Part shown: one piece after another, positions 33,086 through 48,183 of the stretch
Layout: each line of letters starts with the position of its first letter
How positions within the stretch are numbered: position 1 is the stretch's first letter
Source: Nocardioidaceae bacterium
Lineage (GTDB): Bacteria; Actinomycetota; Actinomycetes; Propionibacteriales; Nocardioidaceae
NCBI GenBank assembly: GCA_018672315.1
Contig: CP076053.1
Span: forward strand, 1,103,827 to 1,167,826
Reading direction: 5' to 3'
Length of the DNA stretch: 64,000 nucleotides
Notes under the pieces: model-generated
What the model saw: the letters and a program-made list of their open reading frames with translations, nothing else
The model's database searches: none
Told to the model about the DNA's origin: nothing
Position numbers and translations under genes: made by a program

Positions 33086-36541
<3,456 letters not shown>

Positions 36542-36786: not shown

Positions 36787-37614
36787 CTACAGGTTGTCCA
36801 GCGTCACGATGTCGTCGATCAGCCAGCGTCCGTCGCGCTGCACCATGTCGAAGCGCACACGGTTGGCGACGGGCAGCTCCTCCTCGCCGGCGACGGTGCG
36901 GGTCTGGTCGACGAACAGCAGCACGGACGCCTCCTGCGGGGCGCCGTCCTCGAGCGGTGTGATGGCGACGATGCCCGCCGCGTACGCCTGGGCCGCCACC
37001 CGCACCTCCTGCTCGACGGCCGACTCCTCCAGCTGCTGGAACTGCGCGTCGTACTCGCGGCGGTAGGCGGGCGTCAGCCACTGGCGGGCCGCCTGTGCAT
37101 CGGCGTCGAGCTGCTCGTAGTCGTAGCCGAGCACCGCCTCGGCCGCCTGCGTCGCGGTGGCGGGCACGACCTCCCAGGCTTCCTCGAGCGCCTGCGCGTC
37201 CTCCGCCTGCTGCCCGAGCAGCACCGCGAGGACCAGCGCCACCGTCGCAGCGACACTGAGCGCCACCAGCAGCACCAGCCCGGCGCCCGTGCCGAGGAGA
37301 CGGCGCCTGGGACGGCGCGCGGCCTGCTTCCCCGACGGCTCCGTGGCCGGGTCCTGCGCCGCGGCTGCCGCGGCCGTCTCTGCCGCCTCGCGCGCCTCGA
37401 GCTCGCGGTCGAGCGTCGCGCGGCGCGTCGGGTCGAGCAGCGTCTCGGCCGCAGCGTTCAGCTCGACCAGGGTGGCGCTGTCCTTCGAGGGGTCCAGGGC
37501 CGTGACGCGGGAGGACCAGGCCGCCCGGACCTCCTCGGGCGTCGCGGAGCGCGGCACGTCCAGCACGTCGTACGCGTCCCGGGTCGGCTCCGCGGCGTTG
37601 GCGCGCCTCCTCAC
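36787..37614 (-). CDS. Mce-associated membrane protein with degenerate J-domain
   Basis: The 275-residue protein starts with a J-domain-like helix bundle (residues about 13-72: DAYDVLDVPRSATPEEVRAAW, then ELNAAAETLLDPTRRATLDR). The HPD tripeptide is replaced by DPS, so stimulation of DnaK ATPase is not expected. A Pro/Ala/Arg linker, one membrane helix (about 108-134) and an extracytoplasmic SnoaL-like Mce-associated domain follow (YRREYDAQFQQLEESAV, VRFDMVQRDGRWLIDDIVTL). The GTG at 37614 overlaps the previous stop. It is the last gene of the Mce operon. Confidence 0.8.
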   Translation of the reverse strand: MRRRANAAEPTRDAYDVLDVPRSATPEEVRAAWSSRVTALDPSKDSATLVELNAAAETLLDPTRRATLDRELEAREAAETAAAAAAQDPATEPSGKQAARRPRRRLLGTGAGLVLLVALSVAATVALVLAVLLGQQAEDAQALEEAWEVVPATATQAAEAVLGYDYEQLDADAQAARQWLTPAYRREYDAQFQQLEESAVEQEVRVAAQAYAAGIVAITPLEDGAPQEASVLLFVDQTRTVAGEEELPVANRVRFDMVQRDGRWLIDDIVTLDNL

Positions 37615-38177
37615 GAGACCACCCCGCCGGGGCCGACGCGACGGTAGTCGTTGACGCGCCACTCGCCGTCGACCTCGAACAGGTCCACCTCCCAGCGCAG
37701 GGCGCCGAGCAGCGGTGAGCCGACGACCTCCACCGAGGTGTCGGCGACGACGAGCACCGTTGCGGAGTCCGCGTCACCGGTCACCACCGCGGTGCCGGTG
37801 ACCTGTGCCTCGGAGGTCACCACGGCGTCCTCCTGCTGGTACGCCTCGAGCTCGGCCACCCGGCCGCGCCACTCCTGGGCGTAGGAGGTGGTCAGCAGCG
37901 GGACCACCGAGGCCTCGTACGCCTGGGACCGGTCGCTGGAGAAGTTGTTGGCCCGGCGGACGAACTGGGTGGCGACCTGCGAGGACGCCTCCCGACCCGC
38001 GGCGATCTCCTCGACCTGCGAGACGGTGCGGAACGACAGCACCGCGACGGTCGCTCCGACGACCAGGGCGACGGCGACCACCCCGAACGCCAGGATCCAG
38101 GGCCAGCGCGCAACACGGGGACCTCGGTCGGTCTCCGGCGTCGTCGGGCTGGTCCCCTTCCTCGGGCGGCGCCTCAC
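37611..38177 (-). CDS. Mce-associated membrane protein
   Basis: The 188-residue protein has a basic cytoplasmic start, one membrane helix (about 26-48: PWILAFGVVAVALVVGATVA) and a SnoaL/NTF2-like outer domain (RSQAYEASVVPLLTTSYAQE; WEVDLFEVDGEWRVNDYRRV). The pattern matches Mce-associated (Mas) proteins that stabilise Mce transporters in mycobacteria. The GTG overlaps the preceding mce stop (GTGA) and the end overlaps the next gene, so the tail of the operon is tightly coupled. Confidence 0.82.
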   Translation of the reverse strand: MRRRPRKGTSPTTPETDRGPRVARWPWILAFGVVAVALVVGATVAVLSFRTVSQVEEIAAGREASSQVATQFVRRANNFSSDRSQAYEASVVPLLTTSYAQEWRGRVAELEAYQQEDAVVTSEAQVTGTAVVTGDADSATVLVVADTSVEVVGSPLLGALRWEVDLFEVDGEWRVNDYRRVGPGGVVS

Positions 38178-39439
38178 TGACCCACGGGCCAGGACAGCAG
38201 GCTCTGCAGGTCCGAGCGCTGGTCGACGGGGACGCTCTTCGGGGTCCGGTCCGACATCTCGTCGCCCATGGTGAGCTCTCCGGTCTCGCTGTTGAACGAC
38301 CCGATGACCGGCGACCGCTCGCCGGCGAACGCCGCACGCGGCGCGTTCTGGGTGCCGCGAGGGTTGACGGACGGGGGCGCCGAGCACCGCGCGTTGAAGT
38401 CCATGGGGGCGTCGCCGACCTCCTGGGGCGCCCGGACGCGGGCGTTGTAGCCCTGCTCGCAGACGGGCGACTGCTGTGTCAGGACGAGCCCGAAGTGAGC
38501 GTCGCTCAGACCGGAGTTGGGGTCCTCCTCGACGACGGTGAAGCCGCCCGCCACGACGTAGGGGAAGATTACGAGGAGCTGCTCGACCCCGTCGATGTTC
38601 TGCACGACGGTGCGTCCGGTCGTCACCAGGTTGTTCAGCAGCTGGCCGAGCTGCTGCTGGTTGTTCTCGATGAACGTGCGCAACTGCCTCGAGGTGGCCG
38701 AGCCGTTGTTGATGACCTGACGCAGGTCGTCGTCGGAGTCCGCCAGGGTGGTGGAGAAGGCGGCGAGGTCGTTCGCGAAGGACCGGATCGCCGACCGCTT
38801 GTCGATCTGCGTGGACAGCACCGTGTCGGAGGTGTTGATCAGCGCGCGGGTGACCTCGAAGTTGGCGTTCGCGGTGTCGATGAAGGACGAGGACGTCTCG
38901 ATGATCCGGCCGAGGTCCGGTCCGGTCCCCTCGAAGGCGTCACCTGCCTCCATGACCGTCTGGCGGAGGTCCTGTTTGTCGACGCTGTCGACCGTGGTGA
39001 CGACGTCCTCGAGGAGCTTCGTGGTCGAGATGGGCAGCGCGGTCATGGCGCGGGGGATCTCCGACCCGGCCTCCAGGAACGGTCCGCCGTCGGACTGCGG
39101 CTGCAGCTCGACGTACTGCTCGCCGACTGCGGAGCGGCTGCCGATCAGGGCACGTGAGTTCGCCGGGATGTCGTCGTAACCGTCTTCGATGTCGAGCACG
39201 ATGTCGATGCCGCCGGGCACCAGGTTCATGGCCTTGACATCGCCGATGGTCACACCGCGGTAGGTCACCTCGGCGCCCTCGAAGGCGCCCCCGGAGTCCG
39301 CGAAGTGTGCGGTCACCGGGTAGGTGGTCGTCATGAACAGCCGGTCGAGCTGCGCGTAGCGGGCGCCGACGAAGGTCACGCCCAGCAGCGAGATGATCAC
39401 GAAGATCAAGAGCTGGACCTTGGTGCGCTGGGTGATCAC
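38174..39439 (-). CDS. MCE family protein, sixth of operon (MceF-like)
   Basis: The 421-residue substrate-tunnel subunit of an Mce lipid importer has one N-terminal membrane helix (VQLLIFVIISLLGVTFVGARYA), an MCE domain (about 40-115: TAHFADSGGAFEGAEVTYRG; SAVGEQYVELQP), a long helical region (about 150-300) and a Ser/Pro-rich C-terminal tail. The GTG start overlaps the lipoprotein stop; a longer in-frame start lies inside that gene and is rejected. Confidence 0.88.
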   Translation of the reverse strand: MITQRTKVQLLIFVIISLLGVTFVGARYAQLDRLFMTTTYPVTAHFADSGGAFEGAEVTYRGVTIGDVKAMNLVPGGIDIVLDIEDGYDDIPANSRALIGSRSAVGEQYVELQPQSDGGPFLEAGSEIPRAMTALPISTTKLLEDVVTTVDSVDKQDLRQTVMEAGDAFEGTGPDLGRIIETSSSFIDTANANFEVTRALINTSDTVLSTQIDKRSAIRSFANDLAAFSTTLADSDDDLRQVINNGSATSRQLRTFIENNQQQLGQLLNNLVTTGRTVVQNIDGVEQLLVIFPYVVAGGFTVVEEDPNSGLSDAHFGLVLTQQSPVCEQGYNARVRAPQEVGDAPMDFNARCSAPPSVNPRGTQNAPRAAFAGERSPVIGSFNSETGELTMGDEMSDRTPKSVPVDQRSDLQSLLSWPVGQ

Positions 39440-41097
39440 GGGTTGTCCACTCCCCACATCAGAAGGAACGCCAGGTCGGACTGTGGCGTGGGGTCGGTGT
39501 CGACGCTGCCGGTCGCCGCGCGCGGCAGCAGTCCACCGACCACGCCGCCGAGTCCGCCACCGCCGTTGCCGCCGCCACCGTTGCCGCCGCCGTTGCCGCC
39601 GCCACCGAGCAGGCCGGACAGGATCCCGGGGATGCCGCCGTCGTTGTCCTGCTGGAACAGCTGGAGCAGGCCGGCGCACAGCGGGTTGCGGGAACCGTTG
39701 CCGTTGGGGCCGGACACACGGTTGCAGATCTTGCGGATCTGCTTGGGTGCCAGGTCCTCACACGCGCGGGAGGTCGGGTCGCCGTTGCGGATGCAGCGAC
39801 GGATCGGGCTGAGGGTCTCGTTCACGGCACCGCCCGGGTCCTCCAGGACATCGCCGAGCCCGTCGCCGATGCCGCGAAGAGTCGCGCACAGGGGGTTGTC
39901 GCGCCCACCGACCCGCTCACAGACCCTGTCGATCTGGTTCGGGCCGAGATCGGCGCAAGCTTCGGAGAGGCCACCCCCGCTGAGGAGGCCGCTCTGCAGA
40001 CAGGCCACGACCTCGGAGACGGGCTCGTCGATCTCGGGCACGCCCGTCGGCGGGAGGTCCGGGACCACGAGGTTGGAGTAGTCCAGGTCGAGCTGGATGT
40101 CGAGGTTGACGTAGTCGCCGAATGCGATCGACCGCGCTTGGGCGGGGTTGCGTCCCACGAGCCCGTCGACGAAGGGATACGTCAGCGCTGTCGAGATGGC
40201 CTGCGGGAAGTCGTCGCCGGACTTGCGGAGCTGGGTCAGCACCGGACGCAGATTCCTCAAGGTCGCGATCGTGCCGGCCTTCGACTGGTTGATCACGCGG
40301 ACGCCCACGTCGCTGAGGCGGTCGAGCGCCTCGAGCACGCGGACGATGTCGTCGCGCTGTCCGTCGAGCGAGTTCAGCGAGGCCGGCAGCTCCTCGAGCG
40401 CGTTGATGATGGCGGGCTTCTGCTGGTTCAGCGAGATGGCGAGCTGGTTCACCGACTCCAGCGCGGTGACGATGTCGTCGCGGTTATCGTTGAGCTGACC
40501 CACGAACTGGTCGAAGGTGCTCAGCAGCTGCTTGATCTGGGGCTGGCGACCGTCCATCGCGATGTTCAGCTCGCTGAAGATCGTCTTGAGCTGTCCGACT
40601 CCACCGCCGTTGAGGATCAGCGACAGCGCGCCGAGCACCTCCTCGACCTCGGGATTGCGACCGGTCTGCGACAGCGGGATCGTGTCGCCGGTCTCGAGTT
40701 CGCCCTGCGCACCCTCCGGCGGCGGAGCCAACGAGACGAATTTCTCGCCGAGCAGGCTGGTCTGTCGGATCTCACCGAGGGCGTTGTCGGGGAGGTCGGT
40801 GTCCCTGCGGATCTCCACGGTCACGGTGGCGGTCCAGTCGTTCAGCTCGACGGCCTTGACCTTGCCGACGGTGATGTCGGCGACCTTGACAGAGGACTGC
40901 GGCACCAGGTCGAGGGCGTCGCGGAACTCGACGTCGACGGTGATGGGGTCCTCGCCGGTGTCCGCACCACCGGGCAGGGGCACCTCGTAGATCGAGAAGC
41001 CGCAGCTCGAGAGCCCGACCGCCAGGGCGGCACCGACGGCGAGCGAGCGGAGACCTCGCCGCACACCGCGACGGTTCCGTGTGGGACGTGCGCTCAC
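39436..41097 (-). CDS. MCE family lipoprotein (MceE-like)
   Basis: The 553-residue protein has a signal peptide with lipobox GLSSC (Cys32), an MCE domain (about 50-125: DALDLVPQSSVKVADITVG; TSLLGEKFVSLAP) and a helical region to about 330. Its C-terminal region is unusual. Two similar cysteine modules, ACADLGPNQIDRVCERVGG with NPLCATL and ACEDLAPKQIRKICNRVSG with NPLCAGLL, are followed by a Gly/Asn tract. Lipoprotein MceE anchors the periplasmic end of the tunnel. GTG start with 4-bp overlap. Confidence 0.88.
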   Translation of the reverse strand: MSARPTRNRRGVRRGLRSLAVGAALAVGLSSCGFSIYEVPLPGGADTGEDPITVDVEFRDALDLVPQSSVKVADITVGKVKAVELNDWTATVTVEIRRDTDLPDNALGEIRQTSLLGEKFVSLAPPPEGAQGELETGDTIPLSQTGRNPEVEEVLGALSLILNGGGVGQLKTIFSELNIAMDGRQPQIKQLLSTFDQFVGQLNDNRDDIVTALESVNQLAISLNQQKPAIINALEELPASLNSLDGQRDDIVRVLEALDRLSDVGVRVINQSKAGTIATLRNLRPVLTQLRKSGDDFPQAISTALTYPFVDGLVGRNPAQARSIAFGDYVNLDIQLDLDYSNLVVPDLPPTGVPEIDEPVSEVVACLQSGLLSGGGLSEACADLGPNQIDRVCERVGGRDNPLCATLRGIGDGLGDVLEDPGGAVNETLSPIRRCIRNGDPTSRACEDLAPKQIRKICNRVSGPNGNGSRNPLCAGLLQLFQQDNDGGIPGILSGLLGGGGNGGGNGGGGNGGGGLGGVVGGLLPRAATGSVDTDPTPQSDLAFLLMWGVDNP

Positions 41098-42293
41098 TGT
41101 CCACCTCCGATGATCCCGGCGAGCGTGGCGTCGCCGTACTGGTCGGGCCGATCCGGCGCGGCCACGCCGGCCCGGGGCAGCAGCTGCGACACGTCGTCGA
41201 GGGGCAGCGCGTCCGTCACCTGGCTCAACGGCCCCTTGATCGAGTTGCAGAGCTGGTCCCCGCCGGGCTGCTCGCGCAAGATCCCGCAGAGGCCTTGGAT
41301 CGGGTTGTTCAGCAGCATCTTGAACGGCTGGGTCAGGTTGGCGCGCGTGTCGAGCGTCCCTGCCGCGGGGTTGTAGACGAGGTACAGGTTGTTCAGCGCC
41401 AGGGGGGCGTCGGTGAGGATCGAGTCCAGGGACTCCCGCTCGTTGACCAGGATCCGCGTCAGTCGCTGGAGGCTGTCGATGTTGCTCGACAGCGACCCGC
41501 GGTTGTCCTGCACGAATCGGCGCACCTCGACCAGCGCGGTGCCCAGGTTGTCGAGGGTGGCGGCGAGGTCGTCGCGCTCTCCCTCGAGCAGGTCCGCCGC
41601 GCCCTGGAGCGAGTCGTTGAACTGACGCACCGTCTCGTCGTTGTCGGCCAGGATCTTCACGAACCGCTGCACCTGCGTGACGGTGTCGAAGAGCGCGTCC
41701 TTGTTGTTGTCCAGCGTGGTGGTCAGACCGGTGATGTCGGTGATGGTCTGGTTGATCTTGCGGCCGTTGCCGGCGAGGTTGTCGGCCGTGTTGGCGAGCA
41801 GCTTCGACAGGGGGCCCTCGCCGTCCGGTCCGGGAGCGTTCGCCCCCTGCGGGCCGATGGCGACGAGCAGGTCGTCGATGCCCTGGTAGACGTCGTCGAG
41901 CTCGAGCGGCTCGGCGGTGCGGTCGACACCCAGCTGGGCGCCGTCGGCCAGCACCGGACCGGAGCCGTCGTACGCGGGGATCATCTGGATGAAGCGGTCG
42001 CCGACGACGGCCGGGGTCACGATCACCGCGGTCGCGTCCTCGGGGAGCTTGACCGACTCGGGGTAGGACACCTCGACCTTGACCGTCGTGCCGTTGGGTT
42101 CGACGGAGTCGACGGACCCGACCGGGACACCGAGCACGCGGATGTCGGAACCCTTGTAGACCGAGATGGCGCGGTCGAAGGACAGCGTCGCCGTCTTGGT
42201 GCCCTCGCCGCCCAGGAGGAAGACCGCGAGACCCGCCACGACCGCCAGCGCGATCGCACCGGTGAGCAGCGTCGAGAGGTTGGGGAGCTTCAT
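41094..42293 (-). CDS. MCE family protein, fourth of operon (MceD-like)
   Basis: The 399-residue protein has an N-terminal membrane helix (LLTGAIALAVVAGLAVFLLG), an MCE domain (LSFDRAISVYKGSDIRVLGV; AVVGDRFIQMIP) and a long amphipathic helical region, then Cys-containing segments GLCGILREQPGGDQLCNSI. It should be one of six subunits forming the lipid tunnel outside the membrane. The ATG overlaps the upstream stop as ATGA. Confidence 0.88.
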   Translation of the reverse strand: MKLPNLSTLLTGAIALAVVAGLAVFLLGGEGTKTATLSFDRAISVYKGSDIRVLGVPVGSVDSVEPNGTTVKVEVSYPESVKLPEDATAVIVTPAVVGDRFIQMIPAYDGSGPVLADGAQLGVDRTAEPLELDDVYQGIDDLLVAIGPQGANAPGPDGEGPLSKLLANTADNLAGNGRKINQTITDITGLTTTLDNNKDALFDTVTQVQRFVKILADNDETVRQFNDSLQGAADLLEGERDDLAATLDNLGTALVEVRRFVQDNRGSLSSNIDSLQRLTRILVNERESLDSILTDAPLALNNLYLVYNPAAGTLDTRANLTQPFKMLLNNPIQGLCGILREQPGGDQLCNSIKGPLSQVTDALPLDDVSQLLPRAGVAAPDRPDQYGDATLAGIIGGGQ

Positions 42294-43294
42294 CGGTTCT
42301 GCCTCCCGAGGATCTCGCCGATCGTGCCCTCGATCGAAGGCACCGCCAGCGGGAAGTTCTGGATGATCGTGTCGAACCACGGTCCGCTGCCCAGCGTGTT
42401 GCCGAACACCCGGTAGAACGGCTCCATCAGCCGCAGGGTGCGCTCGAGGTTGCCCTGGTTCTCGAGGAGGTTGCGGACCACGGCGTCGAGGTTGTCCAGC
42501 GCCGGCTTCAGGTCGGCGCGCGACTGACGCACCAGGATCGTCAGCTCCTGGGAGAACTGGGTGGTGGAGACGAGCAGCCGGTTGATGGCCTCGCGCCGGC
42601 GGACGAGCGCGCGGAAGAGCTCATCGCCCTCCTCCATCAGCGTGATGAGGTTGTCGCCCTGGTTGGCCAGGACGGTGGATACCTCGTCGAGGTTGTTGAG
42701 CAGCGCGTTGAGCTCCTCGTCTCGCTTCGCCACGTTGATCGACAGCGCGGAGAGCCCGTCCAGCGCGCTGCGGAACTCCTCGGGCGTGTCCTCGGTGACC
42801 TGCGCGAGCGTGGTCAGCGACTCCGCGAGGTTGTCGCGGTCGATCGCCTCCGAGGTCTCGGCCAGACCCTCGAACGCCTCGATGATGTTGTAGGGCGACG
42901 AGGTGCGCGTGACGGGGATGACGGCGTCGGTCGCGAGCTCGCCCGAGCCCTCGGGGGTCAGCATCATGAAGGTCGCGCCGAGCAAGGTCTTCACGCGTAT
43001 CTCGGCGCCGGTCTGCTGACCGAAGCCCGAGGAGCTGTCGACGCGGAACTCGGCCCGGACACGGTCACCCATGAGCTCGATGCCGGTGACCTTGCCGACC
43101 CGGACGCCCGCGACGCGGACCTCGTCGCCGGAGCTGAGGCCGCCCGCCTCGGTGAAGTCGGCGTAGTAGACGTCGCCACCGCCCACCAGGGGCAGCTTGT
43201 TGGCGTTGAAGGCGGTGATCATCAGCGCGAGGAGCACCGCGATGGAGATCGCCCCGATGGTGACGGGATTGCGCTGCCGGAAGGGCTTGGCCAT
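42290..43294 (-). CDS. MCE family protein, third of operon (MceC-like)
   Basis: The 334-residue protein has a membrane helix (VTIGAISIAVLLALMITAF), an MCE domain (YYADFTEAGGLSSGDEVRVA; TLLGATFMMLTPEG) and a helical tail with no extension. It is the shortest of the six MCE subunits. The start overlaps the previous stop by one base (TGATG). Confidence 0.88.
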   Translation of the reverse strand: MAKPFRQRNPVTIGAISIAVLLALMITAFNANKLPLVGGGDVYYADFTEAGGLSSGDEVRVAGVRVGKVTGIELMGDRVRAEFRVDSSSGFGQQTGAEIRVKTLLGATFMMLTPEGSGELATDAVIPVTRTSSPYNIIEAFEGLAETSEAIDRDNLAESLTTLAQVTEDTPEEFRSALDGLSALSINVAKRDEELNALLNNLDEVSTVLANQGDNLITLMEEGDELFRALVRRREAINRLLVSTTQFSQELTILVRQSRADLKPALDNLDAVVRNLLENQGNLERTLRLMEPFYRVFGNTLGSGPWFDTIIQNFPLAVPSIEGTIGEILGRQNR

Positions 43295-44322
43295 CAGAGG
43301 TCACACCTCTCCGCGTTGATGTTGTAGTCGATCGGCACGGCGTTGTTGCCGGGCAGCTTCACGTTGCCGGTGAAGCGGCAGAGGTAGAAGTTGAAGAAGG
43401 AGCCGTAGATCGCCGTACGCCCGATCTTCTGCAGCTTGATCGGCATCACCTGCAGGGTGCGGTCGATCTCGCCGGAGTTGCGTCGGAGAGTGGCCGCGAG
43501 ACCGCGCAGCTGCTTGACGTCGGCGATCAGCGGCTGCCGGATGCCCGTGACCAGGTCGGCGGTCTCGTCGGTGAGGTCGGAGATCGAGTTCAGCGAGCCG
43601 AGGATGGCTTGCTTGTCGGAGTTCAGTCCCGTCACGAGCTCGCGCAGCCGCGTGAGCAGGTTGTCGAGCTGCTGGTCTCGGTCACCGACGGTGCGCAGGG
43701 TCTCGTTGAGGTTCGCGATGAGGTCACCGATGAGCTGGTCGCGTGAGGCCAGCTCGTTGGTGATGCCGGCGGTGTTGCTCAACAGGCTCTCGACCGTGCC
43801 GCCCTCACCCTGGAGCACCTGGATGACGTTCATCGACAGCTCGTTCACGTCGTCGGGGTTCAGCGCCGCGAACAGCGGCTTGAAGCCGTTGAAGAGCACC
43901 GTCAGGTCGAGAGCGGGCGAGGTGCGGGACATCGGCACCGTCGACCCGGCCTCGAGCGGCTGCCCTGCGTCCGACCCCTTGGTCAGCGCGATGTAGCGCT
44001 GGCCGACGAGCGTGCGGTACCGGATCTGGACGTTGGTGGTGTCGGTCATCGGCGCGGTCTTGGCGACGCTGAAGGTGACCAGGGCCTTGTCGCGGTCGAT
44101 GATCTCGGTGCCCGAGACCGTGCCGACACGGACGCCCGCGATGCGGACGTCGTCACCGCTCACGACGCCGGTGACGTCCTCGAAGACGGCCTTGAACTCC
44201 CGGGTGTCACGGAAGCTGATGTTGCCGATCGTGACAGCCAGCAGACCGGTCGCCAGGATCGTCACGATCATGAAGATCAGGAGCTTGACCAGGTCGGCGA
44301 GTGTCGCCTTGTCGAGCTTCAC
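43294..44322 (-). CDS. MCE family protein, second of operon (MceB-like)
   Basis: The 342-residue protein has a membrane helix (LLIFMIVTILATGLLAVTIG), an MCE domain (AVFEDVTGVVSGDDVRIAGV; TLVGQRYIALTKG) and a helical region. It ends CRFTGNVKLPGNNAVPIDYN and a Cys-containing tail typical of MceB. The GTG at 44322 has GGAGGTGA 5-6 nt upstream. It directly follows the TGA of an in-frame micro-ORF, so readthrough would add 25 residues. Confidence 0.88.
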   Translation of the reverse strand: MKLDKATLADLVKLLIFMIVTILATGLLAVTIGNISFRDTREFKAVFEDVTGVVSGDDVRIAGVRVGTVSGTEIIDRDKALVTFSVAKTAPMTDTTNVQIRYRTLVGQRYIALTKGSDAGQPLEAGSTVPMSRTSPALDLTVLFNGFKPLFAALNPDDVNELSMNVIQVLQGEGGTVESLLSNTAGITNELASRDQLIGDLIANLNETLRTVGDRDQQLDNLLTRLRELVTGLNSDKQAILGSLNSISDLTDETADLVTGIRQPLIADVKQLRGLAATLRRNSGEIDRTLQVMPIKLQKIGRTAIYGSFFNFYLCRFTGNVKLPGNNAVPIDYNINAERCDL

Positions 44323-44397
44323 TCAGCTCACCTCCGTGACGGCCGGGACGAGGACGGGCGGGACGACCTGCACGTCTCCGCGGTTGGTGGACGTCAT
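44323..44397 (-). CDS. Possible 24-codon micro-ORF between mceA and mceB
   Basis: ATG at 44397 overlaps the mceA stop (TGATG). It encodes 24 residues (MTSTNRGDVQVVPPVLVPAV then TEVS) and ends with TGA directly before, and in frame with, the mceB GTG. It may be a coupling peptide, the remnant of a longer MceB N-terminus broken by a stop, or chance. The product is hydrophobic and Pro/Val-rich with no recognisable domain. Confidence 0.35.
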   Translation of the reverse strand: MTSTNRGDVQVVPPVLVPAVTEVS

Positions 44398-45623
44398 CAC
44401 GAACCGCCTCGAGACAGGGGGACGTCCCATAGCTCCGCGAGGTCCGAGGAGGAGTTGAAGCGCTCCTGGAACGACACCGCGGCGCGCTTGCCGAGCGACG
44501 CGTCGTTCACGCCGTCGTCGAAGTCGGGGATCTGGCTGCGCGGGATCAGGTTGGACTGGGAGAACGCGCCGTCGACAGCCCGGTTGCACAGCTGGATCAC
44601 GTCGGGCGTCGGCTTCTGGCGAGCTCCGAAGGTCGCGCGGTCGCCCGTGGTGTAGCCCCGCGGCTGGTTCGGCAGCAGCTCGAGGTTGATGTGCAGGGTG
44701 TTGTTGCGGAACGCCTCGCCGAGCATCGGCGTCTGCTTGGTGAGCCCTCGCAGCAGGCACTGGAACTCGGGCGAGTAGAACGCGAGCAGGTCGGTCTGGC
44801 GACGGCCCAGACGAGCCGTCGTGATGAGGTTCTCGCCGTTCTCGTCGAGGAAGGTGCGCGTCGTGCCGGAGAGCTCGGCCACCTGGTCCAAGGTCGCCTG
44901 CAGCTGCTGCTCGCGCTCCTCGAGGGTGCCCGTCGTGAGGACCGTGTTGCGCAGGATGGTGCCCAGCTGGGGCGCGATGCCGGCGTACACGTCGGCCGTG
45001 CCGTCGAGGAGCCGGAGGTCCTCGATGGCCTGGGGCAACTCGGGGTTCAGGCGGGTCAGGTAGGTGTTCGCGGTGACCAGACCCTCGCCGATCATCTCGC
45101 CACGACCCTCCAGGGCCGTGGCCAGCGCGTTGAGGGTGAAGTTGATCTGCGCGGGCTCGACGGTGCGCAGCAGCGGGAACACCGACTCGAGGACGTCCTC
45201 GATCTCGGTGGGCAGCTTCGCCTGCTGGATGGTGTCGCCCGCCTGCAGCGACGGGCCACCGAGACCGTCGGTGACCTGCAGGTCGACGAACTTCTCGCCG
45301 AACAGCGTCTTCGGGAGGAGCGCCCCCTGCACGTCGGCCGGGACCTTGTCGATCTCGTCCGGGTACATGCCGAGGGTGATGGTGGCGCCCTCGTTCGTGC
45401 CCTTGACCTCGAGGACTTCACCGACGAACTTGCCACGCAGCTTGACGTCCGCCCGGCTCGGGAGCTGCAGACCGGCGCTCTCCGCCTTCAGCGTCACCTC
45501 GTCGTAGGCGGTGAACTGCTTGGTGAAGATCGCGTACGTCAGGTAGACGCCCGCCACGAGCGCCAGGATGTACGCCGCGCCGAGGACGCGGTTGCCGAAG
45601 ATCTTGCCGAAGAATGACTTCAT
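44397..45623 (-). CDS. MCE family protein, first of operon (MceA-like)
   Basis: The 408-residue protein has a membrane helix (VLGAAYILALVAGVYLTYAI), an MCE domain (KAESAGLQLPSRADVKLRGK; TLFGEKFVDLQVTDG) and a long helical region. A globular C-terminal segment follows (FYSPEFQCLLRGLTKQTPML; NLELLPNQPRGYTTGDRA), the "cholesterol uptake porter"-type end seen in many MceA proteins. The ATG overlaps the YrbE-B stop by 4 bp; the open frame above it is antisense noise inside yrbE. Confidence 0.9.
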   Translation of the reverse strand: MKSFFGKIFGNRVLGAAYILALVAGVYLTYAIFTKQFTAYDEVTLKAESAGLQLPSRADVKLRGKFVGEVLEVKGTNEGATITLGMYPDEIDKVPADVQGALLPKTLFGEKFVDLQVTDGLGGPSLQAGDTIQQAKLPTEIEDVLESVFPLLRTVEPAQINFTLNALATALEGRGEMIGEGLVTANTYLTRLNPELPQAIEDLRLLDGTADVYAGIAPQLGTILRNTVLTTGTLEEREQQLQATLDQVAELSGTTRTFLDENGENLITTARLGRRQTDLLAFYSPEFQCLLRGLTKQTPMLGEAFRNNTLHINLELLPNQPRGYTTGDRATFGARQKPTPDVIQLCNRAVDGAFSQSNLIPRSQIPDFDDGVNDASLGKRAAVSFQERFNSSSDLAELWDVPLSRGGS

Positions 45624-46447
45624 CCCGCCAACCTCACGGTGGTGCTCGCTCCCCAGATCGCCATGGAGAGGAACAGGTCGATGACGTTGATCGCGACGAT
45701 CGACAGTCGGACTGCGCTGCCCACGGCGATGCCCACACCTGCGGGACCGCCCGAGGCGGTGTAGCCGTAGTAGCAGTGCACGAGGATCACGACGACGGCG
45801 AAGACCAGCACCTTGCCGAAGGACCACAGCACGTCGCCGGGTGGCAGGAACTGGTTGAAGTAGTGGTCGTAGGTGCCCGCGCTCTGCCCGAAGAACTGCG
45901 TCACGGTGAGTCGCGTCGCGAAGTACGAGGACATCAGGCCCACGACGTACAGGGGGACGACGGCGACCAGACCCGCCAGGATGCGGGAGGTCACGAGGAA
46001 GGGGATCGAGGGGATCGCCATGACCTCCAGGGCGTCGATCTCCTCGGAGATGCGCATCGCGCCGAGCTGGGCGGTGAAACCGCAGCCGACGGTCGCCGCC
46101 AGGGCGATGCCGGCGACCAGCGGGGCGATCTCCCGGGTGTTGAAGTACGCCGAGACGAACCCGGTGAAGGCCGAGGTGCCGATCTGGTTCAGCGCGGCAT
46201 ACCCCTGCAGGCCGACCTCGGTGCCGGTGAAGAACGCGAGACCGGTGATCACACCGACGGTGCCGCCGATGACCGACAGCGCCCCCGAGCCGAGGGTCAC
46301 CTCGGCCAGGAGCCGCATGATCTCCTTCTTGTACCGGCGGATCGTGCGCGGGCTCCACGCGAGCGCGCGGATGAAGAAGCTGAGCTCCGCACCGAGGTTG
46401 TCGAGCACCCCGAGCGGCTTCTGGTAGACGGCCTTCACGCTTGCCAC
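45620..46447 (-). CDS. MlaE/YrbE-family ABC permease B
   Basis: The 275-residue integral membrane protein has the MlaE signature (GVITGLAFFTGTEVGLQGYA; AQLGAMRISEEIDALEVMAI). In Mce systems two YrbE proteins form the transmembrane pore. The start is GTG, 4 nt after the first permease gene. Confidence 0.92.
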   Translation of the reverse strand: MASVKAVYQKPLGVLDNLGAELSFFIRALAWSPRTIRRYKKEIMRLLAEVTLGSGALSVIGGTVGVITGLAFFTGTEVGLQGYAALNQIGTSAFTGFVSAYFNTREIAPLVAGIALAATVGCGFTAQLGAMRISEEIDALEVMAIPSIPFLVTSRILAGLVAVVPLYVVGLMSSYFATRLTVTQFFGQSAGTYDHYFNQFLPPGDVLWSFGKVLVFAVVVILVHCYYGYTASGGPAGVGIAVGSAVRLSIVAINVIDLFLSMAIWGASTTVRLAG

Positions 46448-46451
46448 GACG

Positions 46452-47234
46452 TCACCCTGTCTTCGGTGGGACGAGCTGGAAGTACACGGCGGACAGGATG
46501 AAGTTCACGACGAACAGCAGCATGAAGGTGATGACCACCGACTCGTTCACCGCGTCACCGACACCCTTCGGCCCGCCGGCCGCGTTCATGCCCTTGTACG
46601 CGGCGACGATCGCAGCGATGAAGCCGAAGAAGATCGCCTTGATGAAGCCCTGGTACAGGTCGGGCAGCTGCGCCAGCGCGGTGAAGCTCGCGAGGTAGGC
46701 GCCCGGCGTGCCGTCCTGGAGCACCACGTTGAAGACGTATCCGCCGGCGATGCCGACGACGCTGACGAGGCCGTTCAGGAAGACCGCGACCATGACCGCG
46801 GCGAGCACCCGGGGGACGACGAGCCGCTGGATGGGGTCGATGCCGAGCACCATCATCGCGTCGAGCTCCTCGCGGATCTTGCGAGCGCCGAGGTCGGCGG
46901 CGATGGCCGACCCTCCCGCGCCCGCCACGAGGAGGGCTGTCGCGATGGGCCCGGCTTCTCGCACCACCGCGAGCACCGCCGCCGAACCCGTGAACGACTG
47001 GGCTCCGAACTGCTTGATCAGGCCACCCACCTGCAACGCGATGACCGCGCCGAAGGGGATGGCGACCAGCGCCGTCGGGATGATCGTCACCGAGGCGATG
47101 AACCACGCCTGCTGCAGGAACTCACGCAGCTGGAAGGGCCGCTTGAAGATGTTGCGGGTCACGTCCAGCCCGAAGGCGAAGAGCTTGCCCGCGGTCCCGA
47201 CGGGCGCCAGGACGCGGGTGGCGGTCGAGGCCAA
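46452..47234 (-). CDS. MlaE/YrbE-family ABC permease A
   Basis: The 260-residue permease has the EQ-loop region ADLGARKIREELDAMMVLGI and a conserved C-terminus (GFIAAIVAAYKGMNAAGGPK). It pairs with permease B. The start is TTG with GGTGA upstream, one nt after the ATPase stop. Confidence 0.9.
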   Translation of the reverse strand: MASTATRVLAPVGTAGKLFAFGLDVTRNIFKRPFQLREFLQQAWFIASVTIIPTALVAIPFGAVIALQVGGLIKQFGAQSFTGSAAVLAVVREAGPIATALLVAGAGGSAIAADLGARKIREELDAMMVLGIDPIQRLVVPRVLAAVMVAVFLNGLVSVVGIAGGYVFNVVLQDGTPGAYLASFTALAQLPDLYQGFIKAIFFGFIAAIVAAYKGMNAAGGPKGVGDAVNESVVITFMLLFVVNFILSAVYFQLVPPKTG

Positions 47235-47235
47235 C

Positions 47236-48183
47236 TCAGTTCACCATCGTCATGTTCGGCTCGAAGGAGCCGGGAGGCGGCGTGACGCCATTCGCCGCGC
47301 ACCAGGCGCCGGGGTCGCGCTGCGACCGACGACGGATGCCGTTGGAGGGCTCGAGCTGCACGGGGATCGGGGGCAGGGGCGGGAGCTCCTGGCCGGACTC
47401 GGCCTCGAGCTCGTCGTCGTCCTTCTCCTCGGACATGCCGATCGGACCGATGCGCTGAGCGTTCAGGAACTGCCTGACGACAGGCTCCTCGGAGCTCAGG
47501 AGCATCTCGCGGGGCCCGAACATCGCGAGGTGCTTGTGGTAGAGCAGGCCGATGTTGTCGGGCACGGTGCGCGCGGTGTTGATGTCGTGGGTCACGATCA
47601 GGAACGTCGCGTCGATCTGGGCGTTGAGGTCGACGATCAGCTGGTTGAGGAAGGCCGAGCGCACCGGGTCGAGGCCGGAGTCCGGCTCGTCGAAGAGGAC
47701 GATCTCGGGGTCAAGCACCAGTGCGCGCGCCAGGCCGGCCCGCTTGCGCATGCCGCCGGAGATCTCGCCCGGCAGCTTGTCCTCGGTGCCGATGAGGCCG
47801 ACGAGGTCGAGCTTCTCCATGACGATGTCGCGGACCTCGGACTCGGACTTCTTCGTGTGCTCGCGCAGGGGGAAGGCGATGTTGTCGTAGAGGTTCATCG
47901 AGCCGAACATCGCGCCGTCCTGGAACAGCACGCCGAAGAGCTTGCGGATCTCGTACAGCTCGTCCTCGGGACAGGACGCGATGTCGGTGCCCTGGATGAT
48001 GATCTCGCCGCGGTCGGGCTTCAGCAGGCCGATCAGCGTCTTGAGGAACACGGACTTGCCCGTGCCGGAGGGGCCGAGCATCACGCAGATCTCCCCGGCG
48101 GGGATCGTCAGGGTCACGTCGCCCCAGATCAGCTGCTTGCCGAAGGACTTGGTCAGGTGGTTGACCTGGATCTCGGTGCCCAT
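47236..48183 (-). CDS. Mce-type ABC transporter ATP-binding protein (Mkl/MlaF-like)
   Basis: The 315-residue ATPase has Walker A GPSGTGKSVFL, Q-loop VLFQDGAMFGSM, ABC signature EISGGMRKRAGLARAL, Walker B EIVLFDEPDSGLDPV and the H-loop VTHD. A Mkl-type C-terminal extension of about 70 residues, acidic then Pro-rich, follows. It energises the YrbE permeases. In M. tuberculosis the homologue mkl also lies between rplL and rpoB, but without the rest of the operon. First gene of the operon; GGAAGGGG precedes the ATG. Confidence 0.94.
   Translation of the reverse strand: MGTEIQVNHLTKSFGKQLIWGDVTLTIPAGEICVMLGPSGTGKSVFLKTLIGLLKPDRGEIIIQGTDIASCPEDELYEIRKLFGVLFQDGAMFGSMNLYDNIAFPLREHTKKSESEVRDIVMEKLDLVGLIGTEDKLPGEISGGMRKRAGLARALVLDPEIVLFDEPDSGLDPVRSAFLNQLIVDLNAQIDATFLIVTHDINTARTVPDNIGLLYHKHLAMFGPREMLLSSEEPVVRQFLNAQRIGPIGMSEEKDDDELEAESGQELPPLPPIPVQLEPSNGIRRRSQRDPGAWCAANGVTPPPGSFEPNMTMVN

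Follow-up and report, generated by a model that had tools for sequence, protein, structure and literature searches.

A J-like domain without the HPD triad on a Mam-type protein of the rpoB-linked Mce operon in Nocardioides and its close kin

Mam proteins have been difficult to recover in purified complexes of Mce importers. Mce transporters are stabilised by Mam and Omam proteins (PMC9947336, PMC10865790), and the Mam1 proteins of mycobacteria were not co-purified with the Mce1 complex (PMC9882608, PMC10517005), so that the Mam contact may be weak, indirect or transient. The protein described here, J-Mam, resembles the Mam/Mas and OmamA-E proteins in its one membrane helix, its probable cytoplasmic N-terminus, its outer alpha-beta domain and the paired genes placed after mceF. 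It differs from them in the N-terminal region, which in Mas proteins consists of short tails, an RDD region, coiled coils or, in one case, a kinase domain, with no J domain reported (PMC1810536). A functional analogue is MlaB of the E. coli MlaFEDB complex, a cytoplasmic accessory proposed to stabilise the MlaF ATPase dimer (PMC9947336), although MlaB is a soluble STAS-domain protein of unrelated fold.

The canonical J proteins (DnaJ and membrane-anchored forms) share with J-Mam the four-helix J fold, the helix III/IV consensus and a near-invariant proline, whereas J-Mam lacks both HPD and a client-binding part and has an acidic helix II and a shortened loop between helices II and III. In the mitochondrial import motor, Pam16/Tim16 likewise brings a J-like domain without HPD to a membrane transport apparatus, but it acts through the paired Pam18 and mtHsp70, a pair with no counterpart encoded in the operon here, and it bears no Mam-type outer domain. 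ARC6 and PARC6 of plastid division combine an inner J-like domain (ARC6; PMC3196505), a transmembrane region and an outer domain structurally neighbouring the Mam domain. They are much longer, serve in division and carry an extra conserved region after the J-like domain, where J-Mam has only a variable linker; the resemblance is one of layout, and no shared origin of the fusion is claimed. CJD1 of Arabidopsis chloroplasts is a membrane protein with an HPD-less J-like domain and a link to lipid metabolism, and this domain bound ARC6 in yeast, gave no binding of Hsp70 there and could not substitute for DnaJ in E. coli (PMC3196505). CJD1 differs from J-Mam in having three predicted membrane helices and no Mam domain, and it lies outside Mce transporters.

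The window, that is the whole stretch of 64,000 nucleotides analysed here from a Nocardioidaceae bacterium, carries a complete Mce operon on the minus strand in the order mceG-yrbEA-yrbEB-mceA-F-mam-J-mam, which is followed by rpoB and rpoC (Table 1). J-mam is the last operon gene and lies directly upstream of rpoB; it starts with GTG, and this start shares 4 bases with the end of the preceding mam gene, whose stop is TGA. Neither a J-domain partner gene for J-Mam nor MlaB is encoded in this operon, and the genome has two general DnaJ proteins, both of which keep HPD. The ATPase gene mceG opens the operon here; the mycobacterial MceG gene, by contrast, lies apart from the mce operons (PMC10517005).

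Table 1. Coordinates of the J-mam gene, its parts and the neighbouring genes in the window (residue numbers are those of J-Mam)
Feature	Position	Strand	Remark
J-mam gene, 275 aa	36787..37614	-	J-like domain, linker, one membrane helix and Mam outer domain
J-like domain, residues 14-71	37402..37575	-	PF00226 match; HPD replaced by D41-P42-S43
D-P-S triad codons, residues 41-43	37486..37494	-	HPD position
Variable linker, residues 72-107	37294..37401	-	basic stretch AARRPRRRLL at end
Membrane helix, about residues 108-138	37201..37293	-	runs on into long outer-domain helix
Outer NTF2/VirB8-like (Mam/Omam) domain, residues 139-275	36790..37200	-	
Upstream partner mam gene	37611..38180	-	Rv0361_Cterm-like, under model cut-off; start about 38180 inferred from mceF overlap
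mceF, mceE, mceD, mceC, mceB	38174..44322	-	MCE family proteins
mceA	44397..45620	-	MCE part of longer ORF 44397-46358
yrbEB	45620..46447	-	permease
yrbEA	46452..47234	-	permease
mceG/mkl	47236..48183	-	ATPase with C-terminal extension; first operon gene
rpoB	33086..36541	-	next gene downstream of J-mam; fixed neighbour in 79/80 loci

The preliminary description of this DNA, which named no strand for the gene, had aligned the N-terminus by eye with DnaJ helices I-IV and had read the gene as a J domain joined through a linker and a single membrane helix to an outer domain of the Mam type, all within an Mce operon. The layout was borne out by Pfam, AlphaFold2 and the operon genes. The PF00226 (DnaJ) profile scored 29.9 bits (E 2.2e-6) on J-Mam of the window in the whole-genome scan and 27.9 bits in the protein scan, above the curated cut-off of 27.8 bits, and the cut-off was passed by nine of ten relatives scanned (best 41.7 bits; the tenth gave 27.1). 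The AlphaFold2 model, built on an alignment of 74 orthologues, had a mean pLDDT of 89.4 and predicted N-terminal helices at residues 14-18, 26-39, 46-60 and 62-86 (block pLDDT about 89-98), with a long membrane-crossing helix and a helical-beta outer domain. The same four helices were obtained when residues 1-88 were modelled alone (pLDDT 88, pTM 0.72). The Foldseek matches listed for the J-like model were all J domains or J-domain proteins, the best being 2och with a TM of 0.82 (target length) and an rmsd of 1.7; the small size of the domain kept the E-values modest (best 1.8e-3). The comparison with 2och by VIA-align (Z 10.4, rmsd 1.7 over 63 residues) is in accordance with Foldseek. The eye alignment was thus upheld by a profile score above the cut-off and a confidently predicted four-helix J fold, and the structure prediction and fold search suggested earlier as a check of this region gave a J fold with J domains as PDB neighbours. 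A J domain is present in J-Mam beyond chance.

On the other side of the membrane helix, structure comparison placed the outer domain (about residues 140-275) with the IcmL/DotI/VirB8 proteins (Z 15.8, rmsd 2.1, 126 residues), and its Foldseek neighbours also include ARC6, PARC6 and Tim44. The J-Mam family profile matched OmamC (9r33) by sequence with an E-value of 4.7e-7. The earlier label 'SnoaL-like' for this domain was right at the superfamily level, the fold being NTF2/VirB8-like. The stretch before the membrane helix (AARRPRRRLL, 98-107) has five net positive charges, and the flank after the helix is acidic; by the positive-inside rule, this charge pattern would place the J-like domain in the cytoplasm, and a cytoplasmic N-terminus has been proposed for Mas proteins in general (PMC1810536).

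The replacement of HPD by DPS, as first read, was found again at residues 41-43 (D41-P42-S43). It is a property of the family, since the histidine was present in 0/74 orthologues, the aspartate in 1/74 and the proline in 73/74. The triads in the 74-row alignment were DPT (25), EPG (23), DPS (7), DPG (7), DPA (4), EPT (3), GPT (3), ESG (1) and EPD (1), giving a consensus of [DE]P[GTSA]; the new motif conserved around it is IADL[DE]P-x-DRRF. The copy in the window is divergent at 37465-37505, where it reads ALDPSKDSATL against DL[DE]P-x-DRRF of its relatives, so the new motif is partly lost in it. The J domains that bind Hsp70 carry a positively charged helix II, unlike that of J-Mam, whose net charge was -1 to -4 in 69/74 rows. 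The J scaffold, the helix III/IV consensus and one helix II arginine (R30) are retained, and the conserved polar residues include D39, [DE]41, R47, R48 and N53. The word 'degenerate' used for this domain in the preliminary description therefore holds for the lost HPD and fails for the rest, as the scaffold is well preserved and the HPD site is now taken by a different, conserved motif. J-Mam is classed here as a member of the Mam family with a J-like domain and not as a J-domain co-chaperone, because neither HPD nor a basic helix II was found in it.

The constraint on the different parts of the protein was compared. The mean pairwise identity in the 74-row alignment was 0.66 for the J-like domain, 0.47 for the outer domain and 0.23 for the linker (residues 72-105). 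The dN/dS values in 60 close pairs, chosen since loosely filtered pN/pS was saturated, were 0.43, 0.54 and 0.99 in the same order, and only their ranking was used as high GC inflates the absolute values. By these alignment measures the J-like domain is under purifying selection and is the most conserved part of J-Mam, as would be expected if it has kept a function other than catalysis, for example docking.

The same fusion was found throughout Nocardioides (soil bacteria) and close kin in the order sample and the GTDB contig scan. As to the search for the fusion in other Mce operons that had been proposed at the outset, J-mam lay behind mceF in 80/80 named loci fetched, with rpoB downstream in 79 of them; the eightieth contig ends before that point. 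The contig query matched 412 stretches, a figure not taken as a count of fusions since ordinary J domains may be among them. The contig scan with the window protein as sole query gave no relative, probably due to its outlier sequence; the alignment query succeeded. In the class and phylum samples, searched with single-protein queries, the assessable matches running from the J-like into the outer domain all came from the J-Mam family, and as 12-13 candidates were scored per genome, rare fusions elsewhere could be missed. For a weak near-full-length match outside the family (G210:C1), the fetched sequence gave no match to the window protein. J-Mam had no match in the plasmid collection and spread on plasmids was rejected. 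Three Nocardioides genomes without J-Mam were also without a YrbEA match. In the locus of Nocardioides sp. B-3, many operon genes and rpoB look frameshifted, which suggests a poor assembly. In Marmoricola endophyticus, the stretch that separates J-mam from rpoB (L110, 10904-13016) contains a second ABC ATPase-like match.

The rpoB-linked Mam proteins of one large-genome family (f3) and three genera (g2, g5, g6) of the order are without the J-like domain and bear at the N-terminus a short basic motif, R-x-R-I-A-G-[EQ]-R. In the J-less Mam proteins of seven loci (L121, L123, L141, L142, L143, L147, L148) this conserved motif is roughly R-x-R-[IV]-A-G-[EQ]-R; the location before rpoB was checked for the genes of L141-L143, L147 and L148. 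As J-less sister genera carry this basic tail at the same locus, the J-like domain likely replaced a short Mam tail in the Nocardioides lineage, and the tail itself was possibly a linear docking motif. J domains with HPD and a short helix II-III loop occur on membrane proteins of other actinobacterial families (L134, L137, L138). Such proteins are a possible source of the J-like domain, and the Marmoricola-type copies (REATDKFEPGSGSGQF) look intermediate.

We propose that J-Mam crosses the membrane once and is an accessory subunit of the Mce lipid importer linked to rpoB, and that its J-like domain probably serves as a docking module for a cytoplasmic partner, most likely MceG/YrbE, without activation of DnaK. 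The tie to the importer seen here is a genomic one, namely the fixed place in the operon and the joint absence of J-Mam and YrbEA from three genomes. The docking role is considered probable because the J-like domain is the best conserved part although HPD is lost in all the species checked; the partner and the effect are what we infer. On the outside, the NTF2/VirB8-like Mam domain would associate with the Mce assembly, perhaps paired with the co-encoded Mam. On the inside, the J-like domain, presumably no longer able to trigger Hsp70, would act through what used to be its helix II/HPD face, IADL[DE]P-x-DRRF in the present form, and bind MceG or the MceG-YrbE interface, which would stabilise or regulate the engagement of the ATPase. 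Binding of the acidic J-like domain to MceG or YrbE is plausible. The C-terminal extension of MceG bears a conserved basic motif in the loci, PSNGIPRRSQR-x-PG-x-WCRENGVTPPPGSF, and the mycobacterial extension contacts the neighbouring MceG and is important for function (PMC9882608). The MceG tails are similar in genera without the J-like domain (four further genomes compared), with no decisive pattern, and thus no co-variation that clearly singles out MceG. Two further points weigh against the proposal, the partial loss of the new motif in the window copy and the failure of Mam1 proteins to co-purify with Mce1 in mycobacteria. The fuller proposal, that a J domain has turned into a dedicated Hsp70-independent interface of a bacterial ABC lipid importer, replacing the basic tail and bridging the outer Mam domain to MceG across the membrane, is held more tentatively.

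Among the other explanations, a regulator of the Pam16 kind, in which the J-like domain pairs with a true DnaJ and so governs DnaK at the Mce complex while the latter is assembled or turned over, has a precedent, as the HPD-less Pam16 binds Pam18 and thereby inhibits the latter in stimulating mtHsp70 (PMC2695266), and two HPD-bearing DnaJ proteins are available in the genome. The operon encodes no J partner, however, and Pam16 and Pam18 have co-evolved as a pair in the membrane, unlike the DnaJ of this genome, which is a general chaperone; this role is unlikely. Even less probable is that the J-like domain recruits DnaK directly and independently of HPD, for folding or protecting Mce proteins. 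The kept J scaffold, the helix III/IV consensus and R30 would allow it, but the family as a whole has lost the His and Asp of HPD, helix II has a net negative charge, and an HPD-less J-like domain neither bound Hsp70 in the yeast two-hybrid assay nor complemented DnaJ (PMC3196505).

The short basic tail of the sister genera indicates that the J fold is dispensable for a Mam protein at this locus, and the domain could accordingly be a structural spacer or folding cap without specific partner, kept as a replacement of the earlier cytoplasmic tail. The strong conservation of the domain, with the polar residues D39, [DE]41, R47, R48 and N53 included, speaks against a spacer and makes it rather improbable, slightly less so than direct recruitment of DnaK. 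The preliminary description had also allowed that relatives might retain HPD, which would make the window copy a simple decay product. That copy is indeed barely above the Pfam cut-off; relatives nevertheless reach 41.7 bits, the histidine is missing in 74/74 and the domain shows purifying selection. Local decay of an HPD-bearing J domain was rejected because the orthologues are without HPD and the J-like domain is constrained, and chance similarity is rejected along with it on the orthologue scores, the family-wide loss of HPD and dN/dS; either is now hardly credible.

No report of a fusion of a J-like domain with a Mam protein was found in the literature searched, which left subscription papers largely outside and whose silence is no proof. 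The parts of J-Mam are known, and their combination is new relative to that literature and to the Mas architectures of PMC1810536. A compact conserved cytoplasmic domain on a Mam protein offers, in a non-pathogenic genus, a direct handle on the partners of Mam through the motif IADL[DE]P-x-DRRF. If the docking role is true, J-Mam would be a bacterial example, beside Pam16 and CJD1, of a J domain used independently of Hsp70 as a docking part.
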